A stretch of DNA of 55,299 nucleotides from Clostridiisalibacter paucivorans DSM 22131 (GTDB taxonomy: Bacteria; Bacillota; Clostridia; Tissierellales; Clostridiisalibacteraceae): NCBI RefSeq assembly GCF_000620125.1, contig NZ_JHVL01000008.1, positions 1 to 55,299 on the forward strand, given 5' to 3'. A program made the translations under genes and the position numbers. Under the pieces are notes generated by a model that was not told the DNA's origin, did not search any database, and was given only the letters and a program-made list of their open reading frames with translations. Position 1 is the first letter of the stretch. Each line of letters begins with the position of its first letter. Positions 12,060 to 55,299 of this stretch are shown here, piece by piece.

Positions 12060-13346
12060 ATGGAGATAATTAAAAAACACCATATAAAGCAATTAATGAT
12101 AATAGCTGTTATAGACTCTATTTCATCTCTTTTTTATCTTAATTTTCCCATTGAAGGATTTAGGATAACATTTTCCGTAGTATTTTTTCCATGGCTATTG
12201 GACATGTATGATGACCTAAATCCTGTTTTAGCATTGGGATTTGCAGCAGTAGTTGAGATTTTCTTTAGAAGTGTAGGTATATTTTTTCAAACAGGAGATT
12301 TTATCTATGCCTTTTTTAGCAGTTATCAGGAGATATTGTTTTATTTGATATATGGATTGATTTTTTATTATCTTTATTCAAAACATAATGGACATAAAAG
12401 TATAGTAGGCAATTTTATTATATTTTTCCTATGTGATTTTGCTGGCAATTTTGGCGAATTTATAATGAGGATATTTACATTGCCAGAAACAGTGACTTTA
12501 AAGACCCTTAAATTTATAATTTATGCTGCATTGATTAGAGCAGCCATAGCGCTATTGACTATAACATTTATGAAGTATTTTGAACTATTGATTGTGAAAG
12601 AAGAACATGAAGAGAGATATAAGAAGTTAGTGTCTCTAGCAACAGATCTAAAAGCAGAAACTTATTTTATGAATATGAATGTAGATTATTTAGAAAAGGT
12701 TATGAATAATGCATATGTATTGTATGGCAAGATGTCAAAGATGAAAGAAATGGATGATCTAAAAAAACTGTCATTAAATATAGCTAAAGATGTCCATGAG
12801 ATAAAAAAAGATTATTTGAGGGTTATTAGAGGAATAGAAGAGATAATGAATAATAAAATAAAATATTCAAATATGGAAATTAAGGACATTTTTGAGATAT
12901 TAAAGCAGAATACAGATAGGTTTCTAACCTTTTCTAATGAAGAAATAGATATAACATTTGATATAAAAGAGAATTTTTACATAAAAGAACATTATTCGTT
13001 TATGTCGGTATTTAGAAATTTAATAAATAATGCAATAGAAGCTATAAATGAAAAGGGAGAAAAGGGAGAAATTATAGTTAAACATAGAACTGATGGGGAT
13101 ATGCATATTTTTACCATTTCAGATAATGGTATAGGAATAAAGGAAAAAAATCTTGAATATATTTTCCAGGCTAGATTTTCTACTAAATTTGATAAAAGCA
13201 CTGGAAATATAAGTAGGGGTATAGGGCTAACTCTTGTAAAGGCTGTAATAGAAAATAAATTTGGAGGTGAACTGGAAGTAGAGTCCCAATATAATCAGGG
13301 GACTACTTTTAAGATTATAATTCCAAAGAAAAGGTTAGGGGGTTAA
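12060..13346 (+). CDS. GlnK-like membrane histidine kinase
   Basis: A 428-residue sensor. The N-terminal half (about 15-175) holds five to six membrane segments and no large extracellular loop. The cytoplasmic half has a phospho-acceptor region with His246 in KDVHEIKKDY, an N-box NLINNAIEAI, DNGIGI and the GIGLTLV G-box. The general layout and the partner resemble B. subtilis GlnK (YcbA), which with GlnL controls glutamine use. The start ATG at 12060 is chosen because AGAGG is 9 bases upstream; an ATG at 12051 would abut the site. It ends 4 bases before the regulator gene. Flanking NhaC genes make cation or carboxylate transport a likely target (inference). Confidence 0.83.
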   Translation: MEIIKKHHIKQLMIIAVIDSISSLFYLNFPIEGFRITFSVVFFPWLLDMYDDLNPVLALGFAAVVEIFFRSVGIFFQTGDFIYAFFSSYQEILFYLIYGLIFYYLYSKHNGHKSIVGNFIIFFLCDFAGNFGEFIMRIFTLPETVTLKTLKFIIYAALIRAAIALLTITFMKYFELLIVKEEHEERYKKLVSLATDLKAETYFMNMNVDYLEKVMNNAYVLYGKMSKMKEMDDLKKLSLNIAKDVHEIKKDYLRVIRGIEEIMNNKIKYSNMEIKDIFEILKQNTDRFLTFSNEEIDITFDIKENFYIKEHYSFMSVFRNLINNAIEAINEKGEKGEIIVKHRTDGDMHIFTISDNGIGIKEKNLEYIFQARFSTKFDKSTGNISRGIGLTLVKAVIENKFGGELEVESQYNQGTTFKIIIPKKRLGG

Positions 13347-13350
13347 AGTA

Positions 13351-14211
13351 TTGTTAAAAGTCTATATAGTAGATGATGACATTTCTGTTGTAAAGATACT
13401 GGAAAATATTATTGAGGATTGTGATTTAGGAGATGTTGTGGGATATTCCCTTGGAGGAGAAGATACAGTAAACGACATATTATTATCAGATCCAGATATA
13501 GTCTTGATAGATTTATTGATGCCTGACAAAGATGGCATTGAAATAGTCAAAGACATAAGGGAAGAAGATAATAACATAAAATTTATAATGATATCTCAAG
13601 TGAATACTAAAGAGATGATAGGTAATGCCTATGAATCGGGGATAGAATTTTTTATAAACAAGCCTATTAATATTATTGAAGTTAAAAATATTATGGAAAA
13701 ATTGTCTGAAAAGATAAAAATGGAAAAGATATTGACTCAAATTGAAAGTGTAGTCAAAAAAGATGATCAGAAATCTATTGAAAAGATTTCTAAAAATCCA
13801 GTACTTGACGTAATCACAAATATAAAGAAGATATTAAATAAATTAGGCATACTAGGAGAAAAGGGAGGAGAAGACATAATTAGGATATGTCAATATCTAC
13901 TGAAAACAAAGACATCCATATTTGATTATAAGATTAAAGATCTATGTAATCTTTTGGCAGAAGATAACCAGAAGGCCATGGAGCAAAGGATAAGAAGGGC
14001 AATAAATAAGGGGTTAGTAAATTTGGCCAATATAGGTATGGAAGATTACATGAATTCTACATTTACCAAGTATTCAAACTCTATATATAACTTTCAAGAT
14101 GTAAAGGCTCAAATGGATTATATTAGGGGTAAAAGGAAAACTGGTGGAAAGATAAACGTAAAGAAGTTTATTGATAATATCATGGCATATCAAGAAATAG
14201 GAGATATGTGA
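13351..14211 (+). CDS. GlnL/YcbB-like response regulator
   Basis: 286 residues: a receiver domain (about 1-120) with DDD at 8-10, phospho-acceptor Asp54 (VLIDLLMPDKDG) and the lysine in INKPINI, followed by a C-terminal DNA-binding domain of the YcbB/GlnL type (about 150-270, with segments such as AMEQRIRRAINKGL). The start is TTG at 13351, preceded by AGGGGG at 8 bases, in an operon with the kinase. GlnL of Bacillus activates a glutaminase and transporter gene pair; here the next gene is nhaC, behind a terminator and its own promoter, so that promoter is the obvious candidate target. Confidence 0.85.
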   Translation: MLKVYIVDDDISVVKILENIIEDCDLGDVVGYSLGGEDTVNDILLSDPDIVLIDLLMPDKDGIEIVKDIREEDNNIKFIMISQVNTKEMIGNAYESGIEFFINKPINIIEVKNIMEKLSEKIKMEKILTQIESVVKKDDQKSIEKISKNPVLDVITNIKKILNKLGILGEKGGEDIIRICQYLLKTKTSIFDYKIKDLCNLLAEDNQKAMEQRIRRAINKGLVNLANIGMEDYMNSTFTKYSNSIYNFQDVKAQMDYIRGKRKTGGKINVKKFIDNIMAYQEIGDM

Positions 14212-14345: not shown

Positions 14346-15800
14346 ATGTCAGAAAGTGGCACGAAGCCCAGTGAAATGACTTTTGGTAGAGCAATGATTC
14401 CAGTATTATTTTTAATTGGAGCACTATTTGTGGGATTAAATATTTATGGATCAGATCCCCATATACCTATTTTAGCTACAGCTGTAGTTGCTGGGTTAGT
14501 AGGATTAAAGTCAGGATATTCGTGGCAACATATGGAAGAGGCAATAATGGATACAATAAAGGTTGCCATGCAAGCAGTTCTTATTTTAATGGTAATAGGA
14601 GCACTTACTGGGACATGGATATTGTCAGGGACAGTACCTAGTATGATTTATTATGGACTACAGATAATATCACCAGGGATATTTTTAATAGCTACTACTA
14701 TTATTTCGGCAATCGTTTCCATAGCTACAGGTAGTTCATGGACTACGGCGGGAACAGTGGGTATAGCCCTTATAGGTATAGGAGAAGGATTGGGAATACC
14801 TCTACCTATAGTAGCAGGAGCTATTATATCAGGGGCCTATTTTGGTGATAAGTTGTCACCTCTTTCAGACTCAACAAACTTAGCACCTGCAATGGCAGGA
14901 GCGGAATTGTTTGAACATATAAGACATATGCTTTATACAACAGTACCAAGTTTGCTAATATCTTTAGTATTGTATGGAATAATAGGAATGAAATATTCAG
15001 GAAGTAGTATAGATACAGAGGGAATTGAGGTTATATTAAATGGACTTTCTTCACAGTTTACTATAAGTCCAATATTGTTAATTCCACCACTGATGGTAAT
15101 ATTAATGGTTATATTTAAGATACCTGCAATACCAGGACTAATTGGTGGAGTATTGGTTGGTGGAATATTTGCAGTTGTATTTCAAGGTCAAAATTTAGGA
15201 TCTATAATTGATGCGGCCCATTATGGCTATGTTTCAGAAATGGGAATTCCTGCGGTAGATGACTTGCTTACTGGTGGAGGATTAGATGGTATGATGTGGA
15301 CAGTGTCATTGATACTTTGTGCTATGTCCTTTGGTGGTATAATGGAAAAGACAGGTATGCTAGAGGCTATTGCCAGAAAGATATTGACATTGGCCAATAG
15401 TACAGGTTCATTAGTGTTATCTACAATATTGACTGCTATAGCTTCAAACTTTGTGGCAGGAGACCAGTATTTATCAATAGTTATAACAGGAAGAATGTAC
15501 AAAGATGTATATGATGAAAAAGGGCTTCATCCTAAAAATCTTTCTAGAGTATTGGAGGATTCAGGTACCCTTACATCACCATTGGTACCATGGAATACAT
15601 GTGGGGCATTCATGTATAAGACATTGGGAGTACATCCCTTTGCATTTGCACCCTATGCCTTCTTGAATTTATTGAATCCAATAATCTCTACTATATATGG
15701 ATTTACAGGCATAACGATGGAGAAGGTAGAGAAGGAAGAAAAGTCAGAAAAACAAAAAAAGAAAAAATATTCCAAAGAGTCAATAGAAGGCACTATATAA
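14346..15800 (+). CDS. nhaC: NhaC-family Na+/H+ antiporter (second copy)
   Basis: A 484-residue transporter with about 11-12 membrane segments and the NhaC hallmark SPLSDSTNLAPAMAG (about 176-190), plus GSSWTTAGTVGIALIGIG and a C-terminal TLTSPLVPWNTCG block. It exchanges Na+ with H+ or, in some members, lactate/malate across the membrane. The start ATG follows GAGGAGGAG. It lies immediately after the GlnK/GlnL-like system and ends before a strong palindromic repeat that can act as its terminator. The charged C-terminal tail (EEKSEKQKKKKY) is a cytoplasmic extension. Confidence 0.92.
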   Translation: MSESGTKPSEMTFGRAMIPVLFLIGALFVGLNIYGSDPHIPILATAVVAGLVGLKSGYSWQHMEEAIMDTIKVAMQAVLILMVIGALTGTWILSGTVPSMIYYGLQIISPGIFLIATTIISAIVSIATGSSWTTAGTVGIALIGIGEGLGIPLPIVAGAIISGAYFGDKLSPLSDSTNLAPAMAGAELFEHIRHMLYTTVPSLLISLVLYGIIGMKYSGSSIDTEGIEVILNGLSSQFTISPILLIPPLMVILMVIFKIPAIPGLIGGVLVGGIFAVVFQGQNLGSIIDAAHYGYVSEMGIPAVDDLLTGGGLDGMMWTVSLILCAMSFGGIMEKTGMLEAIARKILTLANSTGSLVLSTILTAIASNFVAGDQYLSIVITGRMYKDVYDEKGLHPKNLSRVLEDSGTLTSPLVPWNTCGAFMYKTLGVHPFAFAPYAFLNLLNPIISTIYGFTGITMEKVEKEEKSEKQKKKKYSKESIEGTI

Positions 15801-43129: not shown

Positions 43130-43894
43130 ATGAAGGATATAGTACAATCAGTAGATAGAGCATTGTCCATATTAGAGGTTTTATCTGAGAATAGCTCAGG
43201 ATTGGGAATAACAGAGATTAGCAAAAAAATAGATTTACATAAGAGTACAGTTCATAGACTATTGTCCACATTAATCTATAAGGATTATGTTGAACAGGAT
43301 CATGAAACAAATAAATATAGGATAACATTAAAGGTTTTAGAATTGGGAAACAATAGACTTAAAGATCTAGATATAGTTACTGTATCTAGGCCTCATCTTA
43401 CTGAGCTGATGAAAAAGACCAATGAAGTTGTACATTTAGTTATATTGGAAAAAGAAGAAATTGTATATATAGACAAAGTGGAGTCTGAAAATACTATTCG
43501 GATGCATTCCACCATAGGAAAGAGAAGTCCCGCATACTGTACTGCTGTAGGAAAGGCTATAATGTCCCATATGACAATGGAAGAGGTATTGGAAATATGG
43601 AATAATAGTCAAATAAAAGAGCATACCCAATATACTATAACAGGGGTAGATGAAATGAAAGAAGAGCTAAAAAAAATAAGGGAAAGAGGATATAGCGTAG
43701 ATGATGAAGAAAATGAGATAGGAGTAAGATGTGTTGCAGCCCCCATATTTAATTGGAAGGGAGATGTAATTGCAGCCATAAGTATATCTGGACCTACCAT
43801 GAGGGTTACTAAGGAAAAAGTGGAAGAGTTCTCTATATTAATAATTGAATATGCCAGAAGAATATCTTTGGAATTGGGATATAACAATAAATAA
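43130..43894 (+). CDS. kdgR: IclR-family regulator (KdgR-like)
   Basis: 254 residues: an N-terminal winged helix (about 5-70; EISKKIDLHKSTVHRLLSTL) and an IclR effector domain (about 75-250; GKRSPAYCTAVGKAIM and GVRCVAAPIF). The position just ahead of eda and kdgK makes it the likely repressor of 2-keto-3-deoxygluconate use, as KdgR is elsewhere. The start ATG has GGAG at 5 bases. It has its own terminator, and a separate promoter serves eda-kdgK. Confidence 0.87.
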   Translation: MKDIVQSVDRALSILEVLSENSSGLGITEISKKIDLHKSTVHRLLSTLIYKDYVEQDHETNKYRITLKVLELGNNRLKDLDIVTVSRPHLTELMKKTNEVVHLVILEKEEIVYIDKVESENTIRMHSTIGKRSPAYCTAVGKAIMSHMTMEEVLEIWNNSQIKEHTQYTITGVDEMKEELKKIRERGYSVDDEENEIGVRCVAAPIFNWKGDVIAAISISGPTMRVTKEKVEEFSILIIEYARRISLELGYNNK

Positions 43895-43947
43895 AAAAAC
43901 AACTCTAAGTTTTGGATTTAATAGACGAAGCTTAGAGTTGTTTTTTT
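43893..43947 (+). terminator. Intrinsic terminator of kdgR
   Basis: A 10-bp stem CAACTCTAAG/CTTAGAGTTG (43900-43909 with 43931-43940), extendable with flanking A/T, a 21-base loop and a T7 tail. Confidence 0.85.
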
Positions 43948-44028
43948 GAAAAACTTTAAAATACAAAGTATATAAGAGATATATTGAATAAGAACAATAT
44001 AATTTGATTAGATAGTTTCTAATAGTCT

Positions 44029-44072
44029 TTGAATATTAAAGAAAAATTCCATATAATGAAACCAAAGTTTGA
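44029..44072 (+). promoter_or_regulatory. eda-kdgK promoter with candidate KdgR site
   Basis: TTGAAT at 44029-44034, 17-base spacer, TATAAT at 44052-44057, directly followed by the near-dyad TGAAAC-CAAA-GTTTGA at 44057-44072 over the expected start of transcription. The promoter is clear; the operator assignment is inference. Confidence 0.65.
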
Positions 44073-44103
44073 AATACGGAACAAAATAATAGGAGGGATT
44101 ACT

Positions 44104-44751
44104 GTGACCCCAAAATATGAAACATTAAAAAGAATTTCTGATGTTGGAATAGTAGCTGTAGTTAGGGCTGAAAGTCCTGAAAGTGCAGAAAAGATAGCTA
44201 AGGCTTGTATAGATGGAGGAATTCCAGCAATAGAGATTACATTTACAGTGCCAGGAGCGGATATGGTTATAAAAGCTCTTAAAGAGAAATTTACTAGGGA
44301 TGAATTGATTGTTGGAGCAGGTACAGTATTGGATAGTGAAACAGCTAGATTGGCCATATTGGCAGGAGCAGAATACATAGTAAGTCCTGCATTTGATATG
44401 GATACAGCTAAATTATGTAATAGATATCAAATACCATATATGCCAGGATGTATGACTATAACAGAGATGATTAGAGCAATGGAAGCGGGTGCCGATATAA
44501 TAAAAGTATTCCCAGGTAGCGCCTTTGGACCAAGTATAATAAAAGCTATAAAAGGACCGTTGCCTCAAGCAGTACTTATGCCTACAGGAGGGGTAAGTTT
44601 AGATAATGTGGCAGAATGGATAAAAAATGGATGTGTTGCAGTAGGAGTAGGTGGCAAACTTACTGGTGGAGCAAAGACTGGAAATTATGATGAAATTACT
44701 GCAACAGCAAAGGAATTCATTAAGAAAATAAAAGAAGCTAGACAAGGATAA
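44104..44751 (+). CDS. eda: 2-keto-3-deoxy-6-phosphogluconate aldolase
   Basis: A 215-residue class I KDPG aldolase (KDPG to pyruvate and glyceraldehyde-3-phosphate). Key residues: Glu44 in IEITF, Arg21 and the Schiff-base Lys134 in IIKVFPG. The start is GTG at 44104 with AGGAGGG at about 7 bases; an upstream frame start at 44029 is excluded, since the promoter lies there. It is 15 bases before kdgK in a two-gene operon. Together they form the lower part of uronate/2-keto-3-deoxygluconate catabolism. Confidence 0.93.
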   Translation: MTPKYETLKRISDVGIVAVVRAESPESAEKIAKACIDGGIPAIEITFTVPGADMVIKALKEKFTRDELIVGAGTVLDSETARLAILAGAEYIVSPAFDMDTAKLCNRYQIPYMPGCMTITEMIRAMEAGADIIKVFPGSAFGPSIIKAIKGPLPQAVLMPTGGVSLDNVAEWIKNGCVAVGVGGKLTGGAKTGNYDEITATAKEFIKKIKEARQG

Positions 44752-44766
44752 AGGAGGATACTTATT

Positions 44767-45789
44767 ATGAAAAAAGTAGTGACTATGGGAGAAATAATGC
44801 TTAGATTATCTACACCAGGATATAAGAGATTTACACAATCTGAATCCTTTGATGTAGTATATGGTGGTGGAGAAGCCAATGTTGCTGTGTCCCTTGCCAA
44901 TTATGGATTAGATGCCTATTTTGTAAGTAAGTTACCAGAAAATCCTATTGGTCAAAGTGCTGTTAATAGTCTAAGAAGATTTGGCGTGAATACTGATTAT
45001 ATAGCAAGAGGTGGAGATAGAGTAGGTATTTATTTCCTTGAAACAGGGGCTTCAATGAGACCTTCAAAGGTTGTATATGATAGGGCTCATTCTGCAATAT
45101 CAGAAGCAGATGTAGAAGATTTTGATTTTGATGAAATATTTAAAGATGCAGAATGGTTCCATTTCAGTGGCATTACTCCTGCATTAAGTGACAAATCTGC
45201 TGAACTTACTTTGGCTGCTCTTAAGGCTGCTAAGAAACATGGAGTAACAGTGAGTGTAGACTTAAACTATAGAAAAAAACTGTGGAGTCCTGAAAAGGCG
45301 AAGAAAGTAATGACTGAGCTTATGGAATATGTAGATGTATGCATAGGAAATGAAGAAGATGCAGAGACAACTTTAGGATTTAAACCAGGAAAGACAGATG
45401 TAACTAAGGGTGAATTAGAGCTTCAAGGTTACAAAGATATATTCAAGCAAATGAAGGATAAATTTGGATTCAAATATGTAGTATCGACTTTAAGAGAAAG
45501 CTATTCAGCATCAGACAATGGCTGGTCAGCATTGATATATAATGGTGAAGAATTCTACCACTCAAGAAAATACGATATAAGAATCGTAGATAGAGTTGGA
45601 GGAGGAGACTCCTTTGCTGGTGGTTTAATATATGGTTTAGTTAGTGGAAAAGACTTTAAAGATGCATTGGAATTTGCTGTGGCAGCTTCTGCTATGAAGC
45701 ATACAATTCCAGGAGACTTTAATATGATGAATGTAGACGAAGTGATGACACTTGTCGAAGGAGATGCATCTGGAAGGGTACAAAGATAA
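44767..45789 (+). CDS. kdgK: 2-keto-3-deoxygluconate kinase (PfkB family)
   Basis: A 340-residue ribokinase/PfkB-type kinase: GGGEANVAVSLA near 33-44 (substrate-binding signature) and RVGGGDSFAGGLIYG near 276-290 with the catalytic Asp. It phosphorylates 2-keto-3-deoxygluconate to KDPG for the aldolase encoded just upstream. The start ATG follows AAGGAGG. No hexuronate isomerase, dehydratase or transporter gene is adjacent, so the upstream part of the pathway must lie elsewhere. Confidence 0.9.
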   Translation: MKKVVTMGEIMLRLSTPGYKRFTQSESFDVVYGGGEANVAVSLANYGLDAYFVSKLPENPIGQSAVNSLRRFGVNTDYIARGGDRVGIYFLETGASMRPSKVVYDRAHSAISEADVEDFDFDEIFKDAEWFHFSGITPALSDKSAELTLAALKAAKKHGVTVSVDLNYRKKLWSPEKAKKVMTELMEYVDVCIGNEEDAETTLGFKPGKTDVTKGELELQGYKDIFKQMKDKFGFKYVVSTLRESYSASDNGWSALIYNGEEFYHSRKYDIRIVDRVGGGDSFAGGLIYGLVSGKDFKDALEFAVAASAMKHTIPGDFNMMNVDEVMTLVEGDASGRVQR

Positions 45790-46805: not shown

Positions 46806-47417
46806 ATGAAATATTATTCAATAGGTGAATTTGCAGATAAAATAGGGAAAAGTATTCAGACTCTAAGAAATTGGGATAAAAAAGGAACATTAAAACCGTC
46901 CCATGTAACAGAAGGTGGGACTCGATATTATTCTCAAAAACAACTTAATCATTTTTTAGGACTTAAAGGAGAAGAACAACTAGATAAAAAAGTGATAGGC
47001 TATTGTAGAGTTTTTTCAAACAAGCAAAAAGACGACCTAGAAAGACAAGTAGAAAATGTTAAAACTTATATGATTGCAAAAGGCTATCAGTTTGAGGTAA
47101 TAACTGACATAGGTAGTGGTATTAACTATAATAAAAAAGGGTTGAATAAATTAATAGATATGGTAACTAATTCGGAAGTTGATAAGATAGTAATTTTATA
47201 TAAAGATAGGTTGGTTAGATTTGGTTTTGAATTAATAAAAAACTTGTGTGATAAGTATGGAACTACCATTGAAATTATAGATAATACCGAAAAGACAGAG
47301 GAGCAAGAGTTGGTCGAAGATTTAATTCAAATTGTTACGGTCTTTAGTTGTAGACTTCAAGGCAAGAGAGCAAATAAGGCTAAAAAGATGATTAAGGAGC
47401 TAACAGAAGATGATTAG
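46806..47417 (+). CDS. tnpA: IS607 TnpA-like serine recombinase, catalytic serine replaced
   Basis: 203 residues: a MerR-like helix-turn-helix (about 1-50; YSIGEFADKIGKS) and a resolvase domain (about 62-200). The catalytic block should read RVSSNKQ; here it is RVFSNKQ, so the nucleophile position (resolvase Ser10, here residue 70) is Phe. The codon is TTT at 47013-47015, one C-to-T step from TCT. Arg68 and the LERQ helix are kept and the frame is otherwise whole, so the protein could still bind DNA but is not expected to recombine. Start ATG with GAGGTGA. The ORF overlaps tnpB by 8 bases. Confidence 0.85.
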   Translation: MKYYSIGEFADKIGKSIQTLRNWDKKGTLKPSHVTEGGTRYYSQKQLNHFLGLKGEEQLDKKVIGYCRVFSNKQKDDLERQVENVKTYMIAKGYQFEVITDIGSGINYNKKGLNKLIDMVTNSEVDKIVILYKDRLVRFGFELIKNLCDKYGTTIEIIDNTEKTEEQELVEDLIQIVTVFSCRLQGKRANKAKKMIKELTEDD

Positions 47418-48603
47418 AACATATAAGGTTATGTTAAAACCTAACAATAAACAAAAAACAAAACTATTTGAATGTGCAGGACTAAGTAGATGGGCTTACA
47501 ATTGGACTTTAGGAAAACAAAAAGAAAACTATAATAATGGTGGAAAGTTTCTTAAAGATAGTGTTTTAAGAAAAGAATTAACTAAACTGAAGAAAATAAA
47601 AGAATATAGTTGGTTAAATCAATATTCTAACAATATAACAAAACAAGCCATAAAAGACGCTTGTAATAGTTATAAAAGGTTTTTTAAAGGGTATAGTAGC
47701 TTCCCTAGATTTAAGTCTAAAAGGAAATCTAAACCTAGTTTTTATCAAGACAATATTAAAATTAAGTTTACTAAAACCCATGTTAAACTTGAAAAATTAA
47801 CTACAAGTAAAAAGAAGAATAGGCAAAAGTTTAACTGGATTAGATTAGTTGAAAAAGGAAGAATACCAACAGGTGAAGATATCAAGTATTCTAATCCAAG
47901 AGTAGGGTTTGATGGACTTAATTGGTGGATAAGTGTAGGTGTAAAAATAGAAGAAGTTAAAGAAGATAAGCCAAAGTCAGAGCCGATAGGCATAGATTTA
48001 GGGGTTAAAGATTTAGCAATAATAAGTAATGGAGAGAAATATAAAAATATCAATAAATCTAGTAAAATGAGAAAATTGATTAAAAGATATAAGAGATTGC
48101 AAAGACAAATATCAAGGAAATACGATATGAGTAAAACTAAAATAGAAGGAGGTGAAAACTGTTACAAATACCATAAAACTAAGAATATTATAAAAGCTGA
48201 AAATAAACTAAAAAGACTCTATAAGAAGATAAAGGGTTTAAGGGACAATTATATTCATCAAGTTACAAATTCTTTGGTGAAAGCCAAGCCAAATTATATT
48301 GTAATTGAAGATTTGAATATAAGTGGTATGCTTAAAAATAAAAAACTATCTAAGGCTATACAAGAGCAGTCTTTAAGAGAGTTTAGAAGGCAACTTGAAT
48401 ATAAGTGTAAATGGAATGATGTTAAATTAATAGTTGCAGATAGATATTATCCTAGTTCTAAACTATGTAGCTTATGTGGATATATTCATAAAGACTTAAA
48501 ACTATCAGATAGAATTTATAAATGTCCTAAGTGTGGAAATAAAATAGATAGAGATTATCAAGCAAGTATAAATCTTAGAGAATACCCTAAATCAGTAGCA
48601 TAA
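47410..48603 (+). CDS. tnpB: TnpB RNA-guided nuclease (IS607-associated), intact
   Basis: A 397-residue TnpB with every RuvC residue present: Asp196 (GIDLG), Glu300 (VIEDLN) and Asp382 (DRDYQAS), plus a zinc ribbon with Cys353, Cys356, Cys372 and Cys375. It uses an omegaRNA from the 3' end of the element to cut matching DNA. It starts inside the tnpA end (overlap 8 bases), translationally coupled. The RuvC III motif reads DRDYQAS, common in IS607-type TnpB. Its nuclease is predicted active, although the partner recombinase is not. Confidence 0.93.
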   Translation: MIRTYKVMLKPNNKQKTKLFECAGLSRWAYNWTLGKQKENYNNGGKFLKDSVLRKELTKLKKIKEYSWLNQYSNNITKQAIKDACNSYKRFFKGYSSFPRFKSKRKSKPSFYQDNIKIKFTKTHVKLEKLTTSKKKNRQKFNWIRLVEKGRIPTGEDIKYSNPRVGFDGLNWWISVGVKIEEVKEDKPKSEPIGIDLGVKDLAIISNGEKYKNINKSSKMRKLIKRYKRLQRQISRKYDMSKTKIEGGENCYKYHKTKNIIKAENKLKRLYKKIKGLRDNYIHQVTNSLVKAKPNYIVIEDLNISGMLKNKKLSKAIQEQSLREFRRQLEYKCKWNDVKLIVADRYYPSSKLCSLCGYIHKDLKLSDRIYKCPKCGNKIDRDYQASINLREYPKSVA

Positions 48604-48795: not shown

Positions 48796-48936
48796 ATGCA
48801 AAAAAAACAACAAAAAAATAAAGAAAATAAGAGGAAAAATCAAAAAGATGTATGCAAAGAATGTGGTGCAAAGATGAGACCAGAAGGCGGATGTTTTGTA
48901 TGCCCCAATTGTGGATACAGTCCATGCCATATATAG
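48796..48936 (+). CDS. 46-residue zinc-ribbon protein
   Basis: A short ORF: a basic Lys/Asn/Gln-rich N-terminus (about 1-18), then CKECGAKMRPEGGCFVCPNCG, with two CxxC-type pairs and a further Cys (VC-x2-C... FVC-x2-C). The zinc-ribbon pattern and the GGC...C-x2-CG-YS spacing resemble the C-terminal tail of coenzyme-B12-dependent ribonucleotide reductase. There is a stop codon two codons upstream, so it begins at this ATG; the ribosome site is weak (GGATAAG). It may be a small independent protein or a remnant. It sits just after the IS607 element. Confidence 0.6.
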   Translation: MQKKQQKNKENKRKNQKDVCKECGAKMRPEGGCFVCPNCGYSPCHI

Positions 48937-49031: not shown

Positions 49032-49592
49032 TTGAAAAAATTATTTGAGCAGTTTACTATTGTGCCTTCTATAAGGATGTTAAAGGATTTAGATTATGTT
49101 CTAGAATCTTCGTTACCTGTAGTACTATTGTCAGAGGTACATATAGGCAATTTAAAATCCTTGGTACAGAGATGTCACAATAAAAATAAAAAGGTACTGG
49201 TAAATGTAGACTTGATAGGTGGTTTTTCTCCTGATAAGATAGGAGTCAAATTATTGGTTGATTTATTTAAAGTAGATGGAATATTCACATCGAATATTAT
49301 AACTATTAATATGTGCAAATCTGTTGGGTTATTTACGATACAAAGGTTTTTCTTGATGGACTCCAAGGCTGTTGATTCCAGTTTAAAATCTTTGAAGAAG
49401 TCTCAAGCAGATGCCATAGAGCTTTTGCCATCTCCTTTAGTACCTGAATTTTTTAATAAGATAGTTAAGAAAAAAGATATTCCCATATTGGCAGGTGGAT
49501 TTGTAAACGATGTAAACAGTGTAAAAGAGTTTAAGAAACTGGGACTCAAAGGAATGACCACCAGCTGTAAGGATATTTGGAAGTTAAAATAA
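49032..49592 (+). CDS. glpP: GlpP-family antiterminator
   Basis: 186 residues matching the GlpP family (glycerol-3-phosphate-responsive RNA-binding antiterminator, TIM-barrel-like): IPSIR-like N-terminus (here VPSIRMLKDL), VNVDLIGGFSPDK, DGIFTSN, IQRFFLMDS and IELLPSP, with AGGFV near the C-terminus. GlpP bound to its ligand prevents termination in glp leaders. Here no glp gene is adjacent. Instead a strong leader terminator and a galactitol-type permease follow, so this copy probably controls the sugar operon. The start is TTG at 49032 with AGGTGA. Confidence 0.87.
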   Translation: MKKLFEQFTIVPSIRMLKDLDYVLESSLPVVLLSEVHIGNLKSLVQRCHNKNKKVLVNVDLIGGFSPDKIGVKLLVDLFKVDGIFTSNIITINMCKSVGLFTIQRFFLMDSKAVDSSLKSLKKSQADAIELLPSPLVPEFFNKIVKKKDIPILAGGFVNDVNSVKEFKKLGLKGMTTSCKDIWKLK

Positions 49593-49622
49593 AATAGAAC
49601 TATGTAGGACAGCGAATAGAAG

Positions 49623-49673
49623 AAGCCCTACTTGAAAGAGAATCTTAAGATTCTCTTTTGAGTGGGCTTTTTT
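49623..49673 (+). terminator. Leader terminator / antitermination target upstream of the sugar operon
   Basis: A long stem of about 21 bp (49623-49644 with 49649-49669; two G-T pairs and a bulge), loop TTAA, then six T. It lies between glpP and the first permease gene, with no clear promoter after it. Transcription of the five downstream genes therefore has to read through this hairpin, which fits GlpP-type control. Confidence 0.75.
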
Positions 49674-49723
49674 ATTTTTATATATTTAAAAAATTCTAAA
49701 AATTAAAATGAGGAGGTAGTACT

Positions 49724-50986
49724 ATGGAAGTTATTAACACAATTATTAACATGGGTCCATCTGTAATGATGCCAATAATCTTTTTCATATTAGCGTTGGC
49801 CTTTGGTGTAAAGATAGGAAAGGCTTTTAAAGCTGGTATGCTGGTAGGTATTGGTTTTGAGGGTATTGGATTAGTAATAGGTCTTTTATTAAATAGTTTA
49901 GGGCCTGCTGCCGAGGCCATGGTTGAAAGATTTGGTCTGAATCTAACAGCAGTAGATGCAGGTTGGCCTGTGGCTGCGACAATAGGCTGGGGTTCTCCTA
50001 TTGTACCATTTGTAGTATTTGGAGGATTATTATTAAATGTACTTCTATTGATATTAAATTTAACCAAAACTGTGAATATAGACATATTTAACTATTGGCA
50101 TTTCTTGCTTACGGGAGGAGTTATATACGCAATTACAGGAAACATAGTCATAGCTTCAGTTGGAGCACTAATTAATTTCTTAATAGCCTTAGTAATTGCA
50201 GATAAAACAGCTCCAAAGGTACAAGAAGCCTATGATATCAAAGGAGTTTCCTTTGCCCATGCAACTTCTGCCATATATGTACCAGTGGGTATAGTGGTAA
50301 ACTGGATTATAGAAAGAATCCCTGGATTAAGCAAGATAGAAGCAAACCCAGATACCATAACAGAAAAGTTTGGAGTAATGGGTGAGCCTTTAACATTGGG
50401 AACAATACTTGGTATATTATTGGGAGTATTGGCTGGATGGAATGTGACAGACATATTAACACTAGCCATCAAGGTTGCAGCAGTTATGGTACTTCTACCA
50501 GCAATGATAAACGTATTGGTTGAAGGATTAGTAACTGTGAGAGATGCTGCCGAGAGTACATTGAAGAAAAAATTCCCCAACAGAGAATTTTACATAGGTT
50601 TAGACACAGCATTACTTGTAGGGGATCCAGCAGTATTGGCAACAGGATTATTGATGATACCAGCGTCATTACTATTAGCAGTTATATTACCAGGAAACAA
50701 GGTGTTGCCCTTTGTGGATTTAGCTTCATTAGTTTTCTTGATTGCCATGGTATCACCGTATTGTAAAAAGAATATGGTCAGGATATTTATAACAGGATTG
50801 GTAGTAATCACTTTAGTTCTATATGCAGGAACAGATATAGCACCTTATTATACTAAGGCTGCAAAACTTGCCGATGTAGCATTACCTCAAGGTGTTGGCG
50901 CAAATGCCGAGATGTCAGGTATTGTTGGTGGGGCAACCACACCTGTTGGTTGGATTTTGATTAAATTATCTGCTTTATTTAATTAA
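49724..50986 (+). CDS. gatC: PTS galactitol-family EIIC permease (GatC-like), orphan
   Basis: 420 residues with about 10-12 membrane segments and GatC-family blocks: VKIGKAFKAGMLVGIGFEGI, GWPVAATIGWGSPIVPF and VGDPAVLATGLLMIP. In a normal galactitol PTS this works with EIIA and EIIB. Neither is present between here and the window end; instead a carbohydrate kinase follows directly. It may therefore import a polyol without phosphorylation, which the kinase then performs, or use IIA/IIB encoded elsewhere. The start ATG follows GAGGAGG. Confidence 0.88.
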   Translation: MEVINTIINMGPSVMMPIIFFILALAFGVKIGKAFKAGMLVGIGFEGIGLVIGLLLNSLGPAAEAMVERFGLNLTAVDAGWPVAATIGWGSPIVPFVVFGGLLLNVLLLILNLTKTVNIDIFNYWHFLLTGGVIYAITGNIVIASVGALINFLIALVIADKTAPKVQEAYDIKGVSFAHATSAIYVPVGIVVNWIIERIPGLSKIEANPDTITEKFGVMGEPLTLGTILGILLGVLAGWNVTDILTLAIKVAAVMVLLPAMINVLVEGLVTVRDAAESTLKKKFPNREFYIGLDTALLVGDPAVLATGLLMIPASLLLAVILPGNKVLPFVDLASLVFLIAMVSPYCKKNMVRIFITGLVVITLVLYAGTDIAPYYTKAAKLADVALPQGVGANAEMSGIVGGATTPVGWILIKLSALFN

Positions 50987-51028
50987 TAATGGAAAATAAA
51001 AAATATTGATTGTTAGGGGGAGCTAATA

Positions 51029-52534
51029 ATGGAAAAATATTTGATTGGTATTGATAATGGTGGCACCATGTCTAAAGCAGCTTTATATAATTTACTAGGT
51101 GAAGAGGTAGCGGCATCTTGTTATAAGACCAATACAATTATGCCTAGTCCTGGATTCACCGAAAGAGATATGGAGGAAATGTGGCAAGCAAATGTAAAGG
51201 CTATAAAGGATGTAATAAATACAAGTAAAATAGATCCAAGGGATATAGTAGGTGTTGCTACTACAGGCCATGGAAATGGTATGTACTTAGTAGATGAGGA
51301 AGGAAAACCTTCTTACAATGGAATAATATCAACAGATACTAGGGCAAAAAAGTATGTTGAGAAGTGGTATGAAGATGGGACATTTGAAGAAGTATTGCCT
51401 AAAACTATGCAATCTATATGGGCAGGGCAGCCAGTTGCATTGATCTCTTGGTTTAAAGACAATAAACCAGAGGTTTTAGAAAAGACAAAATGGATTTTTA
51501 TGTGTAAGGATTATATACGATATAGATTGACAAATGAAACTTATGCAGAGATAACAGATATGTCTGGAACAAATTTGATGAATGTAAGAGATGTTAAATA
51601 TGATAGAGATTTGTTGAAGAAATTTGGTATTGAAGAAATCATGGACAAATTACCACCAATAAAATATTCTTCAGATATATGTGGATATATAACCAAAGAA
51701 GTTGCAGAAATAACAGGTCTAGTTGAAGGGACACCTGTGGCAGGTGGGTTATTTGACATAGATGCATCAGCCATAGCTACTGGACTAATAGAAGAAGAAA
51801 AACTTTGTATAGTAGCTGGAACTTGGAGTATAAATGAATATATAAGCAAGAAACCTGTAATATCAAAGGATCTATTTATGACTTCTATATATTGTATGAA
51901 GGACCATTGGTTGACTACAGAGGCAAGTCCCACTTCAGCCAGCAATTTAGAATGGTTTATAAGTGAAATTATGGAAGGTGGTGATAAAGAAAATTGTTGC
52001 GTATATGACAATGTCAATGATCTAGTTAAAGGGATTTCGCCAGAAGATAGTAATATAATATTCTTACCATTTTTATATGGAACCAATGTAGATGCAGATG
52101 CAAAAGCTTGTTTCATTGGATTAAGTGGATGGCATAAAAAGCCACATTTATTGAGGGCTATATATGAGGGAGTAGCATTTTGTCATAGGGCCCATATAGA
52201 TAGATTATTAAAATATAGAGATAAGCCAGAGGCCATAAGGATAGCAGGAGGTGCAGCTAAATCTGAGGTTTGGATTCAAATATTTGCTGATATATTACAA
52301 ACCCCTATAGAAGTTACAACAAGTACTGAACTGGGAGCATTGGGAGCAGCCATATGTGCAGGAATAGCAACAGGTGATTTTGAGTCTTTCAAATCCGCTT
52401 CTGATTCCATGGTTAAAGTGGCGTATACATGTTATCCAAATAAAGATAATAAAGAGATATATGATAAAAAATATAATTTATATAAAAAATCAATAGAAGT
52501 ATTAACTCCGTTATGGAGTAATTTATCTAACTAG
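51029..52534 (+). CDS. FGGY carbohydrate kinase (L-xylulokinase-like)
   Basis: 501 residues of the FGGY family: an N-terminal domain starting GIDNGGTMSKAALYN, a catalytic-region GLFDIDASA, a C-terminal ATP domain with AGTWSINEY and the RIAGGAAKSEVW adenosine motif. Overall sequence pattern is closest to E. coli LyxK (L-xylulokinase), for example GFTERDMEEMW, ASPTSASNLEWF and FLPFLYGTN. It phosphorylates a ketose or related sugar after import. It lies 42 bases after gatC. The exact substrate is unknown. Confidence 0.87.
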   Translation: MEKYLIGIDNGGTMSKAALYNLLGEEVAASCYKTNTIMPSPGFTERDMEEMWQANVKAIKDVINTSKIDPRDIVGVATTGHGNGMYLVDEEGKPSYNGIISTDTRAKKYVEKWYEDGTFEEVLPKTMQSIWAGQPVALISWFKDNKPEVLEKTKWIFMCKDYIRYRLTNETYAEITDMSGTNLMNVRDVKYDRDLLKKFGIEEIMDKLPPIKYSSDICGYITKEVAEITGLVEGTPVAGGLFDIDASAIATGLIEEEKLCIVAGTWSINEYISKKPVISKDLFMTSIYCMKDHWLTTEASPTSASNLEWFISEIMEGGDKENCCVYDNVNDLVKGISPEDSNIIFLPFLYGTNVDADAKACFIGLSGWHKKPHLLRAIYEGVAFCHRAHIDRLLKYRDKPEAIRIAGGAAKSEVWIQIFADILQTPIEVTTSTELGALGAAICAGIATGDFESFKSASDSMVKVAYTCYPNKDNKEIYDKKYNLYKKSIEVLTPLWSNLSN

Positions 52535-52546
52535 GAGTGATTATAT

Positions 52547-53305
52547 ATGGACTTAAAATTGAAGGGCAAATCTGCAATAGTAACAGGAGGATCAAGAGGA
52601 GTAGGCAGAGGAATATGCCTAGCATTGGCAAAAGAAGGAGCTAATGTTGTAATAAACTATAATAGCAGCAATGAATCAGCATTAAAATTAAAGAATGAGA
52701 TAGAAAGCTTAGGTGGTAATGCTGTTACAGTAAAGGCCAATTTAGGCAATCCAGAAGATTGTAAAAATTTGATAGAAGAAGCTGAAAAGACATTTGGTAA
52801 TGTAGATATACTAATAAATAATGCTGGAGTATGGCCACAAAATTGGGTACAAGACATTCCATTGGATGAGTGGAATAAAACTATAGATATAAATCTGACT
52901 TCTGTATTTTTAACGAGTCAAGCATTTGTAAGAAAAAATATAGATAAGAATAGACCAGGTAAAATATTAAATATAACTTCTCAAGCGGCATTTAATGGTT
53001 CTACCACAGGACATGCCCATTATGCAGCAAGTAAGGCAGGAGTAGTTTCTTTGACAGTATCAATGGCTAGAGAAATGTCCAAATATGACATAAATGTAAA
53101 TGCAATAGCATTGGGAATAGTTGAGACAGATATGACTAAAAAGGCATTAGAGTCCAAAGAGGATTATTATTTGAATAGAATACCAATAGGAAGAGTAGCC
53201 ACTCCAAAGGATATAGGAGATATAGCATTATTTATGGTATCAGAACCAGCATCATATATAACTGGTGCAACAATAGATGCTACAGGTGGAATGTTAATGA
53301 GATAA
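52547..53305 (+). CDS. Short-chain dehydrogenase/reductase (SDR)
   Basis: 252 residues of the classical SDR type: GGSRGVGRG (11-19; NAD(P)-binding TGxxxGxG), NNAG near 90, and the catalytic Ser (ITSQ) with Tyr and Lys in YAASK near 160. It is similar in length to FabG or sugar-alcohol dehydrogenases. In this operon it probably oxidises a polyol to the ketose used by the kinase (inference). The start ATG is 12 bases after the kinase stop, with AGGAGTG. Confidence 0.9.
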   Translation: MDLKLKGKSAIVTGGSRGVGRGICLALAKEGANVVINYNSSNESALKLKNEIESLGGNAVTVKANLGNPEDCKNLIEEAEKTFGNVDILINNAGVWPQNWVQDIPLDEWNKTIDINLTSVFLTSQAFVRKNIDKNRPGKILNITSQAAFNGSTTGHAHYAASKAGVVSLTVSMAREMSKYDINVNAIALGIVETDMTKKALESKEDYYLNRIPIGRVATPKDIGDIALFMVSEPASYITGATIDATGGMLMR

Positions 53306-53318
53306 GGAGGAATATTAA

Positions 53319-54173
53319 ATGTTAGTAAATTTAAATGAAGTATTGATAAAGGCAAGAAAAGAAGGATATGGAGTTCCTGCATTTGATTGTACAGAAGATG
53401 TATTGATAAGGACAATACTAGATACTGCTGAAGAAAAAAAATCTCCAGTGATATTGATGGCATTAGAACATGATTTGAAGGGAAAGGGTATAGATTATAT
53501 AACTTCATTAGTCAAGGGAGTTGCAGATAAGTATGATATACCCATAGTATTACATCTAGACCATGCCACTAATTTTGAAATAATAGAAAAGGCTATAGAC
53601 TATGGATTTACTTCTGTAATGTATGATGGATCTATGTTACCTATTGAAGAAAATATAGCCAATACTAAAAGAGTTGTAGAGATGGCCCATCCCAAAAATG
53701 TAACTGTAGAGGCAGAATTAGGTCATGTTGCTGGTAAAGAGATAGATGGGTCTTATGCAGGAGAAACTATGCTCACAGAACCAGACGAGGTTCTAAAATT
53801 TGTAAATGAAACAAAAGTAGATGCCTTAGCAGTTTCTATAGGAACTGCCCATGGAGTTTATGTTTCTGCTCCTGAATTAAATATTGATCGACTAATAGAA
53901 ATAAACAAGATTAGTCCTGTACCATTGGTACTTCATGGTGGCTCAGGAACTCCGATAGATCAAGTACAGGAATCTATAAAGAATGGAATATCAAAGATTA
54001 ATCTATACGCAGATCTAAGGATAGCAATGTTTAAAGGATTGAAAGTATCTGCTAAATCTCATGATAGAGTAGATCCACTACCAGATCAATTATACAAACC
54101 TATTAGGGATGCCTTAAGAGAAACTATAATAGATAAAATGGAAATGGTTTTTTCAGAAAACAAAGGAATATAA
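53319..54173 (+). CDS. Class II ketose-bisphosphate/tagatose-type aldolase
   Basis: 284 residues of the class II (Zn-dependent) aldolase family: HLDHATN (His metal ligand), EAELGHVAG, VSIGTAHGVY and LHGGSGTP (zinc-binding His and phosphate-loop). It cleaves a ketose (bis)phosphate to dihydroxyacetone phosphate plus an aldehyde, as GatY/KbaY or FbaA do. Its place after the kinase suggests it splits the phosphorylated product. The start ATG follows AAGGAGG, 13 bases after the SDR stop. Confidence 0.9.
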   Translation: MLVNLNEVLIKARKEGYGVPAFDCTEDVLIRTILDTAEEKKSPVILMALEHDLKGKGIDYITSLVKGVADKYDIPIVLHLDHATNFEIIEKAIDYGFTSVMYDGSMLPIEENIANTKRVVEMAHPKNVTVEAELGHVAGKEIDGSYAGETMLTEPDEVLKFVNETKVDALAVSIGTAHGVYVSAPELNIDRLIEINKISPVPLVLHGGSGTPIDQVQESIKNGISKINLYADLRIAMFKGLKVSAKSHDRVDPLPDQLYKPIRDALRETIIDKMEMVFSENKGI

Positions 54174-54191
54174 TCTAAAGAGGTGATTTAA

Positions 54192-55187
54192 ATGAATTTA
54201 TTAGCTATTGCAGACAATTTTATAGATGCAGAAACAATGCATAGAGGACTTGAGGGGTTAAAAGATCTAGGCGTGAATATAGAAGTAAGGAATTGGTACC
54301 ATGAAGACCAAGAGGCACTCCAAAGAGATAATTTACTTATAGAGCAGAATGGACCAGAAGCAGTAGAACTTTCGGAAAACTTAATGAAAGATATGGATAA
54401 ATTTGATATAGTAATTGTTCAGTTTGCTCCAGTATCTAAGAAATTAATAGACAAAGCAAAAAATTTGAAGATAATAGGAGTTTTAAGGGGAGGAATAGAG
54501 AATATAGATAAAAAATATGCTGAAGAAAAGGGCATAAAGGTGTTAAATACTCCAGGGAGAAATGCTAGAGCTGTAGCTGAATTTTCTATGGGAATGATAC
54601 TAAGCGAAACAAGAAATATAGCCAGGTCCCATTATGCATTGAAAAATGATCAGTGGAGAAAAGACTTTCCAAACAGTAGTTATATTCCAGAGTTAAATGG
54701 CAAAACAGTAGGTATAATTGGATTTGGACATATAGGTCAATTGGTAGCAGGATATTTAAAGGCCTTTGGGTCAAATATATTAGCCTATGATCCATTTTAT
54801 AATGGAAGTTTTGAAGGTGTGGAAATTACAGATTTGGAAAGACTTTTAAAGAATTCAGATATAATTACTATACATTCTAGGTTAACTGAGGAGACTCATA
54901 ATTTAATAGATGAAAAAGAATTTTCTTTGATGAAAGAGAATGCAGTATTGGTAAATACAGCCCGTTCAGGTTTGGTGAACCAAAAGGCATTAGTAAAAGC
55001 ATTAAAAGAAAATAAGATATTTGGAGCCGCAATAGATGTATTTGATGACGAACCTATACCTGAAGATGATGAGATATTGAAGCTAGATAATATTACAATA
55101 ACACCCCATATAGCAGGATCAACAAAAGATGCATTCTCCAATAGTCCTAAAATGATGGCAAATATTTTAAAAGATATAATAAAATAA
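54192..55187 (+). CDS. D-2-hydroxyacid dehydrogenase
   Basis: 331 residues of the D-isomer-specific 2-hydroxyacid dehydrogenase family: GRNARAVAEF (substrate side), the NAD-binding GFGHIG (about 175-180), then the catalytic Arg in NTARSGLVN, Glu in DDEP and His in PHIAGST. Such enzymes interconvert 2-oxo and D-2-hydroxy acids; here one product of the aldolase, for example an aldehyde oxidised elsewhere, could be handled. It is the last visible gene of the operon. The start ATG follows AGAGGTG, 18 bases after the aldolase stop. Confidence 0.9.
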   Translation: MNLLAIADNFIDAETMHRGLEGLKDLGVNIEVRNWYHEDQEALQRDNLLIEQNGPEAVELSENLMKDMDKFDIVIVQFAPVSKKLIDKAKNLKIIGVLRGGIENIDKKYAEEKGIKVLNTPGRNARAVAEFSMGMILSETRNIARSHYALKNDQWRKDFPNSSYIPELNGKTVGIIGFGHIGQLVAGYLKAFGSNILAYDPFYNGSFEGVEITDLERLLKNSDIITIHSRLTEETHNLIDEKEFSLMKENAVLVNTARSGLVNQKALVKALKENKIFGAAIDVFDDEPIPEDDEILKLDNITITPHIAGSTKDAFSNSPKMMANILKDIIK

Positions 55188-55199
55188 ATACAGTAAGTA

Positions 55200-55299
55200 G
55201 TTGAATGATGAAATCCTATGGATTTCATCATTCAACTAAGAACTAAGAACTAAGAACTAAGAACTAAGAACTAAGAACTAAGAACTAAGAACTAAGAAC
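55200..55299 (+). repeat. Heptad-repeat element (copy 11) with nine tandem TAAGAAC units
   Basis: A perfect 37-nt hairpin (17-bp arms, loop TAT; 55200-55236), containing the GAAATCC/GGATTTC core, followed by nine exact TAAGAAC heptads (55237-55299) that run to the window edge, so the array may be longer. It acts as a terminator-like end of the sugar operon. Confidence 0.95.

Follow-up and report, generated by a model that had tools for sequence, protein, structure and literature searches.

The window analysed here, a stretch of 55,299 nucleotides, carries a six-gene operon whose open reading frames (ORFs) were all found on one strand between positions 49032 and 55187. The genes and the elements of the leader are as follows.

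49032..49592, + strand: GlpP-family antiterminator gene (PF04309, 166 bits)
49604..49631, + strand: proposed antiterminator / GlpP recognition element (pairable arms, 22/22 leaders)
49619..49673, + strand: intrinsic terminator in the glpP-EIIC interval (z -5.2)
49724..50986, + strand: orphan EIIC of the galactitol (GAT) family (PF03611, TIGR00827)
51029..52534, + strand: FGGY carbohydrate kinase (family match; clade apart from E. coli LyxK)
52547..53305, + strand: classical short-chain dehydrogenase, SDR (PF13561/PF00106)
53319..54173, + strand: class II (FBA-family) aldolase (PF01116, 309 bits)
54192..55187, + strand: D-2-hydroxyacid dehydrogenase (PF02826, 202.6 bits)

From glpP onward the intergenic gaps are 131, 42, 12, 13 and 18 nt. 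Naming the ORFs by eye, we saw no EIIA or EIIB within the operon or downstream on the contig, where a peroxiredoxin-like ORF, a two-component system and a TRAP-type operon follow. The first-pass annotation had described a tight gene run behind a leader terminator and a GlpP gene, lacking EIIA and EIIB, and the ORFs, the gaps and the terminator all bear this out. It had also known of no named pathway with exactly this gene set; nor did we find a paper on the set in the open PMC literature, which most subscription papers lie outside. The pathway is an uncharacterised one, built from known families.

We then looked at how far the arrangement is conserved. The gene-order search that had been suggested returned the same six-gene order in eight other loci, in Tissierellales, Clostridium and Brevibacillus, meaning that the operon is more than a chance assembly. 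In 12 enterobacterial loci and in E. coli SE11, the class II enzyme is replaced by a class I aldolase of the DeoC/LacD family. Other relatives have exchanged the transporter or a dehydrogenase; where the EIIC is replaced, its slot is taken by ABC-type genes (by eye), by a permease of the GntP type or by an entire PTS. The true-PTS variant has neither SDR nor kinase: in the two PTS-bearing loci, L149 and L150, the FGGY kinase search found nothing, which is what one would expect if the EIIC and the kinase together replace a PTS. Variant G carries GlpA-like genes and encodes a glycerol-3-phosphate-oxidase-like gene, which fits a glycerol-phosphate-like ester.

The EIIC is a member of its family (PF03611, 272.6 bits against a cut-off of 24.2) that lies below the curated galactitol EIIC cut-off (TIGR00827, 430.7 against 542.2 bits), and a profile built from 13 relatives aligns with the solved structure of a galactitol EIIC, 9u82, over positions 2-385. 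In the draft genome (85 contigs, 99.17% complete) it is the one EIIC-GAT match. For EIIA and EIIB the search covered two families, PTS_EIIA_2 (PF00359) and PTS_IIB (PF02302), each of which gave zero matches, so the EIIC is an orphan as had been proposed. With partners found neither locally nor by this family search, a standard GatABC PTS is impossible here. Finding gatA and gatB directly downstream, or always conserved together with the operon, had been named as grounds for rejecting the scheme; we looked for both situations and found neither. GatA- and GatB-like ORFs lie within 1.5 kb in 24 of the 26 other EIIC-GAT loci with DNA from the same order, L029 and L031 being the two likewise devoid of such neighbours, and in 0 of 4 operon-type loci. 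The earlier idea of unphosphorylated uptake has a partial precedent: in a ptsI mutant, a system with an EIIC of the GatC family transports xylose in unphosphorylated form (PMC10989795). Deletion of the IIA or IIB gene also lowered xylose use there, and the case is therefore no demonstration of an EIIC that functions by itself.

The terminator ahead of the EIIC gene has a folding energy of -36.4 kcal/mol, with 0 of 200 shuffles as good. Overlapping its 5' arm is the CCUAC arm of a second element, which consists of an arm GUAGG, an 18-nt loop with GCGAAUAGAAG and the arm CCUAC. This element occurs with pairable arms in all the leaders compared, which represent both main forms of the operon; when nine representative leaders were re-paired at random, the observed total was reached in 21 of 3002 draws. 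By eye, a like element is present in the GlpP-kinase gap in 5/5 leaders of variant G. A pattern scan for the motif gave none in variants B (L149), C (L152), D (L151, L154) and E (L157 only), nor in the Treponema locus L045. The genome encodes three GlpP proteins (225.8, 202.3 and 165.9 bits), that of the operon scoring lowest, and we inspected canonical GlpP surroundings in this genome (L134, L135) for the motif. Terminators precede the C13 GlpP gene and a glpA-like gene, but by eye the upstream sequence, GAGAYAAAGAGA, differs from the operon's element, and no such terminator was seen in the C13 GlpP-glpF stretch. Given its presence in the leaders of both main forms, the operon's element is probably the target of GlpP. 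The operon's own GlpP would sense a phosphorylated intermediate resembling glycerol-3-phosphate and would stabilise the alternative hairpin, disrupting the terminator ahead of the EIIC gene. The Rfam matches in the leader were discarded as chance hairpins, being sub-threshold (for example SpF19_sRNA, 27.2 bits against a gathering score of 60, and MIR828, 29.4 against 69).

The control resembles that of the Bacillus subtilis GlpP glycerol regulon (glpFK, glpD), in which a GlpP-family antiterminator and a terminator likewise precede transport and kinase genes; in contrast, the operon contains no glycerol genes and its GlpP is one of several in the genome.

Among the enzymes, the aldolase passes the broad ketose-bisphosphate aldolase model TIGR00167 (264.5 against 215.6) and misses the equivalog TIGR01859 (285.2 against 343.05). 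The equivalents of Helicobacter pylori D82, H83, E134, H180 and H210, as well as of G181, G211, S213, K251 and N253, are all kept; we take these to have metal, catalytic and DHAP-side roles, and H. pylori Arg280 to be the arginine that contacts the distal phosphate. The metal, catalytic and DHAP-side positions are conserved in 22/22 class II aldolases from the variants, none of which has arginine at the Arg280 position. In the operon aldolases this residue is Asp (9/10) or Glu (1/10), whereas GatY has Arg. The window's enzyme has Asp256 there, in a loop of different length, which makes the equivalence with Arg280 less certain, and the nearby Arg250 could stand in for the missing arginine. A kept DHAP side combined with the absence of the distal arginine points to a singly phosphorylated ketose as the probable substrate. 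The cleavage step put forward in the first-pass annotation is backed both by these active-site residues and by the replacement of the enzyme by an unrelated aldolase in other loci. As for the SDR, its nearest solved structures are FabG-like and, among the matches listed, it passes only the cut-off of the broad 'glucose 1-dehydrogenase' subfamily NF005559 (221.6 against 215). In the hydroxyacid dehydrogenase Arg258, Glu287 and His306 are invariant in an alignment of 11, and are presumably the catalytic Arg/Glu/His.

Taken together, these results suggest, with about even confidence on our part, a GlpP-controlled catabolic operon for a small polyol or sugar acid. The orphan GatC-type EIIC would admit the substrate without phosphorylating it, and the SDR and the FGGY kinase would convert it to a ketose-1-phosphate-like ester. 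From this ester the aldolase, which is of class II here and of class I in Enterobacterales, would release DHAP together with an aldehyde, and a carboxylate-bearing product would be the substrate of the D-2-hydroxyacid dehydrogenase. Against this scheme count the family-typical sequence of the EIIC, the HPr-like gene of variant C, the IIB proteins of other operon-bearing genomes, the lack of a hydroxyacid dehydrogenase in variant G, the aldolase's pass of TIGR00167 and the variants in which the scan gave no leader motif. A broader version, which we put forward tentatively and regard as somewhat less probable than its opposite, is that this is a widely transferred, modular pathway that yields DHAP from a sugar acid or polyol. 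Its GatC-family EIIC would have been turned into a dedicated PTS-independent transporter that works with a cytosolic kinase of its own, and a GlpP paralogue would be reserved for a distinct RNA element common to Firmicutes and Enterobacterales.

A more specific possibility, which we consider unlikely though the best of the alternatives, is that the substrate is a sugar acid such as a pentonate or keto-aldonate. The SDR would then give a 4-keto-pentonate, the kinase its 5-phosphate and the aldolase DHAP and glyoxylate, the dehydrogenase being a glyoxylate reductase. Five loci (L153, L155-L158) do combine a GntP-type, i.e. gluconate-type, permease with an FGGY kinase, the hydroxyacid dehydrogenase and the aldolase, the permease being profile-confirmed in L157 only, and the dehydrogenase adjoins an FBA-like aldolase in 9/10 newly fetched regions. 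The glyoxylate reductase model is the second-best NCBIfam match of the dehydrogenase (216 bits), but 24/24 NCBIfam matches, which include substrate subgroups such as PGDH and glyoxylate reductase, are under their cut-offs. Similarly, aldolase position 51 is His, Arg or Lys in 12/12 enzymes of variants A and E, but non-basic in ten aldolases of variants B, C, D, G and H. Variant G, moreover, has no hydroxyacid dehydrogenase despite a kinase 60-63% and an SDR 53-63% identical to those of the window.

Coupling of the EIIC to a PTS, through EIIA/EIIB of another family or directly through HPr, appears improbable. The substrate would enter phosphorylated, and the FGGY kinase would add a second phosphate or act on a side intermediate. 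Such coupling is consistent with the single Enzyme I N-domain match in the genome, the HPr-like gene directly upstream of the EIIC in variant C, and the IIB proteins encoded somewhere in 7/7 other operon-bearing genomes searched, as well as with the role of IIA and IIB in the xylose case (PMC10989795). The EIIC also retains a normal family sequence: compared with PTS-coupled EIICs, no conserved motif is lost, and two positions differ (21 orphan-type against 13 of 24 coupled rows). On the other hand, neither of the two EIIA/EIIB families searched is found in the genome, GatA and GatB are not conserved beside operon-type EIICs, and the aldolase has no distal-phosphate arginine, which would be expected for a bisphosphate.

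An ordinary L-xylulose (LyxK) or galactitol/tagatose pathway mistaken for a new one is slightly more improbable still, and we rejected this assignment: the family names fit (XylB is the best one for the kinase, galactitol that of the EIIC) and 6/10 kinases of a sister clade have a xylulose-phosphate 3-epimerase-like neighbour by eye, but the operon contains neither an epimerase (ORF check) nor gatAB, its kinase falls in a clade (98/99) separate from that sister clade and from E. coli LyxK, a long branch to which the window's kinase is 36% identical, and the aldolase misses the tagatose-bisphosphate equivalog TIGR01858 (241.8 against 443.55) and lacks the distal arginine of GatY. The earlier label 'LyxK-like' was for the same reasons, identity and clade, too strong.

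Returning to the catabolic operon with unphosphorylated uptake, comparison with known systems places it as follows. With the E. coli GatABC-GatYZ-GatD galactitol pathway it shares the EIIC and class II aldolase families and the DHAP-yielding logic; it differs by its cytosolic FGGY kinase, SDR and hydroxyacid dehydrogenase, by the missing EIIA and EIIB and by an aldolase devoid of the second-phosphate arginine. The E. coli yiaK-sgbE / lyxK pathway for L-xylulose (3-keto-L-gulonate) has an FGGY kinase of the wider LyxK-containing branch, whereas the operon has no decarboxylase or epimerases and a kinase of another clade. The Lsr (autoinducer-2) pathway also uses an FGGY kinase, and the enterobacterial variant adds an LsrF-related class I aldolase-fold enzyme; this candidate was dropped, the aldolase being only 28-30% identical to LsrF and the kinase 22-26% to LsrK, with no LsrG and a different transporter and regulator.

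If correct, the proposed scheme would link to a pathway those gene sets of Clostridia, Klebsiella and a few E. coli that at present carry family labels alone, and would offer a natural example of a PTS EIIC working without phosphotransfer. GlpP-type RNA antitermination would also be known outside glycerol metabolism, and the RNA element is defined well enough to be tested in E. coli. The closest counterpart in that species is the uncharacterised SE11 cluster ECSE_RS01435-01410, which shares the kinase, SDR, hydroxyacid dehydrogenase, GlpP and EIIC families and likewise has no EIIA/EIIB beside it; its gene order is different, the operon beginning with a class I aldolase gene, and the class II enzyme is missing.

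The first-pass annotation had placed a six-gene operon at window positions 49032-55187, and all six ORFs were found there on the + strand with clear family matches: GlpP, EIIC-GAT, FGGY kinase, classical SDR, FBA-family class II aldolase and D-2-hydroxyacid dehydrogenase (hereafter dehydrogenase). From glpP onward the intergenic gaps are 131, 42, 12, 13 and 18 nt, and the leader terminator reported earlier was confirmed as a strong one that occupies the 131-nt glpP-EIIC gap. When contigs were scanned with the kinase profile and the best 80 of 126 loci were taken, the gene order was conserved, with the same order and strand in 8 other loci (L037-L041, L043, L044 and L078: a coal MAG, Tissierella simiarum, Anaerosalibacter, Clostridium carboxidivorans, C. 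simiarum, Brevibacillus parabrevis, a Clostridia MAG and C. drakei). A Treponema locus (L045) keeps kinase-SDR-aldolase-dehydrogenase close to genes resembling an ABC transporter and has no GlpP or EIIC match; another locus, L042, combines ABC-type genes with the dehydrogenase, kinase and SDR, and its 19.5 kb gave no match to a class II aldolase. The gene set is real, conserved and uncharacterised, an unusual combination of known families, and a literature search found no paper on it.

The EIIC of the window is an orphan, in agreement with the earlier remark that EIIA and EIIB are missing. It is the only EIIC-GAT match in the draft genome (99.17% complete), in which a search of the PTS_EIIA_2 and PTS_IIB families gave 0 matches for either and Enzyme I gave one. 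No PTS genes were seen on the contig downstream of the operon, past the window end, where the next ORFs resemble by eye a peroxiredoxin, a two-component system and a TRAP transporter. As a control, a search with the EIIC across 249 genomes from the window's taxonomic order matched 50 of them, and the 30 matching loci with DNA were compared. GatA- and GatB-like ORFs (the usual EIIA and EIIB partners) were both present within 1.5 kb in 24 of the 26 non-operon loci, the other two (L029 and L031) having neither, and were absent from that distance in all four operon-type loci (the window and three relatives). A second check, up to 9 kb either side of the kinase in 20 EIIC-bearing operon loci (8 Firmicutes, 12 Enterobacterales), overlaps the control, as three of the Firmicute loci are the contigs of the three relatives; it gave a single weak IIB-like ORF in L039 (E 4e-4), part of a separate PTS-like gene pair on the opposite strand. 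IIB proteins are encoded somewhere in 7/7 other operon-bearing genomes searched (L041 not among them), and the genome-wide absence is thus established for the window's genome only. One Klebsiella michiganensis record (L047) has a disrupted EIIC frame at 12408-13669, with full-length or near-full-length matches for its remaining operon genes, each covered over at least most of its length.

The operon kinase shares 36% identity with E. coli LyxK, an enzyme said in PMC3245297 to occur in few groups of Gammaproteobacteria only. In a tree of 39 kinases, a 19-member clade (98/99) groups the operon, enterobacterial-form and variant G kinases (the latter two forms are described below) with L042, L192, L193 and one unassigned sequence (L197). 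Its sister clade of 10 kinases (99/99) has a xylulose-phosphate 3-epimerase-like ORF nearby in 6 cases (by eye); C_152 and D_151b lie outside, and the branches of EcLyxK and EcLsrK are long.

We then considered the aldolase, aligned with H. pylori FBA and E. coli GatY. All ten operon aldolases keep D82, H83, E134, H180 and H210, which we take to serve catalysis and metal binding, as well as G181, G211, S213, K251 and N253, presumably on the DHAP side. They differ from H. pylori FBA at S49, which is Leu, and at R280, which is Asp (9) or Glu (1), the exact equivalence of the latter position being weakened by a different loop length nearby. Across all variants, both residue sets were kept in 22/22 class II aldolases (including 7 of the 10 operon-type rows) and Arg at 280 in 0/22. 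Since the DHAP-side residues are kept and this Arg is gone, the alignment fits a substrate that would carry phosphate on the DHAP half only; the operon aldolase still matches the broad ketose-bisphosphate aldolase model. As for the dehydrogenase, Arg258, Glu287 and His306 are kept in eleven orthologues, and no named NCBIfam model reached its cut-off, the best being PGDH (253.9 bits) and glyoxylate reductase (216.0).

The class II aldolase has no match in twelve enterobacterial loci (Klebsiella, Citrobacter, Enterobacter, Erwinia, Entomohabitans, Providencia), whose gene order is class I aldolase-GlpP-kinase-SDR-dehydrogenase-EIIC. Their class I aldolase (Pfam DeoC/LacD, 28-30% identity with LsrF) keeps a lysine aligning by eye with what we take to be the Schiff-base lysine of that fold. 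That two unrelated aldolases occupy the same gene set argues that carbon-carbon cleavage is a real pathway step. E. coli SE11 carries the same set, annotated by family only, and the kinase-SDR-dehydrogenase stretch occurs in 3 of 5426 E. coli genomes (surroundings read for SE11 only). Among 394 evenly sampled genomes of the enterobacterial order, the centre genome alone matched the dehydrogenase at E <= 1e-80, and the cluster is therefore sparse in that order.

A dehydrogenase-profile search of the phylum matched 10 of 398 genomes, the window's own included, and the dehydrogenase adjoins an FBA-like aldolase in 9 of the ten regions examined. With the kinase profile, 22 of 391 genomes of the class matched, and 13 of these regions were examined. 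The related gene sets are as follows.

Gene sets related to the operon
Variant B (L149): EIIB-EIIC-EIIA-dehydrogenase-aldolase-dehydrogenase, a true PTS; no kinase or SDR match
Variant C (L152): EIIC (58% identical), dehydrogenase, SDR, kinase, GlpP, aldolase, second dehydrogenase
Variant D (L151, L154): GlpP, kinase, zinc alcohol dehydrogenase, SDR, aldolase, dehydrogenase, second kinase
Variant E (L153, L155-L158): RpiR-type regulator, dehydrogenase, FBA-like aldolase, GntP-type permease, FGGY kinase; no SDR among the cluster genes
L150: PTS, glycerol-1-phosphate-dehydrogenase-like protein, dehydrogenase, then an AraD-like ORF (AraD by eye)
Variant G (L187-L191, five loci): GlpP (40-50%)-kinase (60-63%)-SDR (53-63%)-GlpA-like-pyridine nucleotide oxidoreductase-DUF1667-aldolase (37-42%); no hydroxyacid dehydrogenase or EIIC match within the 16-18 kb regions
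L193: SDR, DeoC-family protein, class II aldolase, kinase, dehydrogenase
L192, 1130-7622: SDR and FGGY kinase beside a BMC shell protein, aldehyde dehydrogenase and phosphate propanoyltransferase

The variant E clusters apparently encode an uncharacterised sugar-acid pathway; their GntP permease, RpiR and FGGY families are profile-confirmed for L157 and assigned by likeness elsewhere, and L156 has an SDR match at 37%, about 4 kb from the dehydrogenase. Family profiles for variant G were run on L188 only. The L192 cluster is possibly a microcompartment version, and the six remaining regions of the 13 have the kinase at 48-54%, the full set being absent. In L152, an HPr-like gene (15208-15471, by eye) lies directly 5' of the orphan-type EIIC and 3' of a terminator. 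Rhizobium and Shinella plasmids (L119, L120) carry another uncharacterised set of similar logic: ABC transporter, AKR, glycerol-3-phosphate dehydrogenase/oxidase, class I aldolase, FGGY kinase (40%) and GMC oxidoreductase.

We also compared nine Firmicute leaders (the glpP-EIIC gap) with thirteen enterobacterial ones (5' of the class I aldolase gene). In all of them a 5-8-nt arm could form a stem with the base of the terminator's 5' arm, and the enclosed loop contains G(U/C)GA in 19/22 (L043, L056 and L059 vary), then GAA in 21/22. This layout is that of a predicted antiterminator, a putative GlpP target, that would exclude the terminator. When arms of nine representatives were randomly re-paired, the observed total was reached in 21 of 3002 draws; mean pairing was 6.0 bp versus 5.1 bp for cross pairs, a gain that is modest because the arms are related. 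The five variant G glpP-kinase leaders all have, by eye, a related GGA(U/C)GGU...GUGA(G/U)UCC overlapping a terminator, and a scan for the element gave no match in Treponema or in variants B, C, D and E (a single locus of E). The window's genome has three GlpP genes, and two inspected glp leaders with terminators differ from the operon's element in their upstream sequence. B. subtilis GlpP is described in PMC9604022 as binding G3P and disrupting a leader terminator.

Taken together, these genes most likely form a pathway in which free substrate would enter via EIIC, the SDR and kinase would yield a keto ester, the aldolase would split it into DHAP and an aldehyde, and the dehydrogenase would act on a carboxylate-bearing product. 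According to PMC10989795, a GatC-family system allows xylose to enter E. coli lacking Enzyme I by facilitated diffusion, with the IIA and IIB genes also needed for full effect; the case thus sets a precedent for passage without phosphorylation but not for an EIIC that is an orphan. Two hints point slightly different ways: variant G, through its GlpA-like genes, and the GlpP sensor suggest a glycerol-phosphate-like ester, and variant E, through its GntP permease, a sugar acid as substrate.

Immediately 5' of the operon lie a MerR/serine-recombinase-like ORF and then a TnpB-like ORF (window 46806-48603), by eye an IS607-type element. Between the TnpB-like gene and glpP, a 46-codon ORF with a CxxC...CxxC zinc-ribbon motif (48796-48936) resembles by eye a detached zinc-finger tail. 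A few kb upstream, at 43130-45789, an IclR-type regulator with KDPG-aldolase-like and sugar-kinase-like ORFs (by eye) is a possible uronate pathway. Right after the last operon gene comes a 17-bp perfect inverted repeat (55200-55236), followed by a tandem array of a 7-bp unit (AACTAAG, 20.4 copies; 55234-55299) within which the window ends and which continues to contig position 55375.
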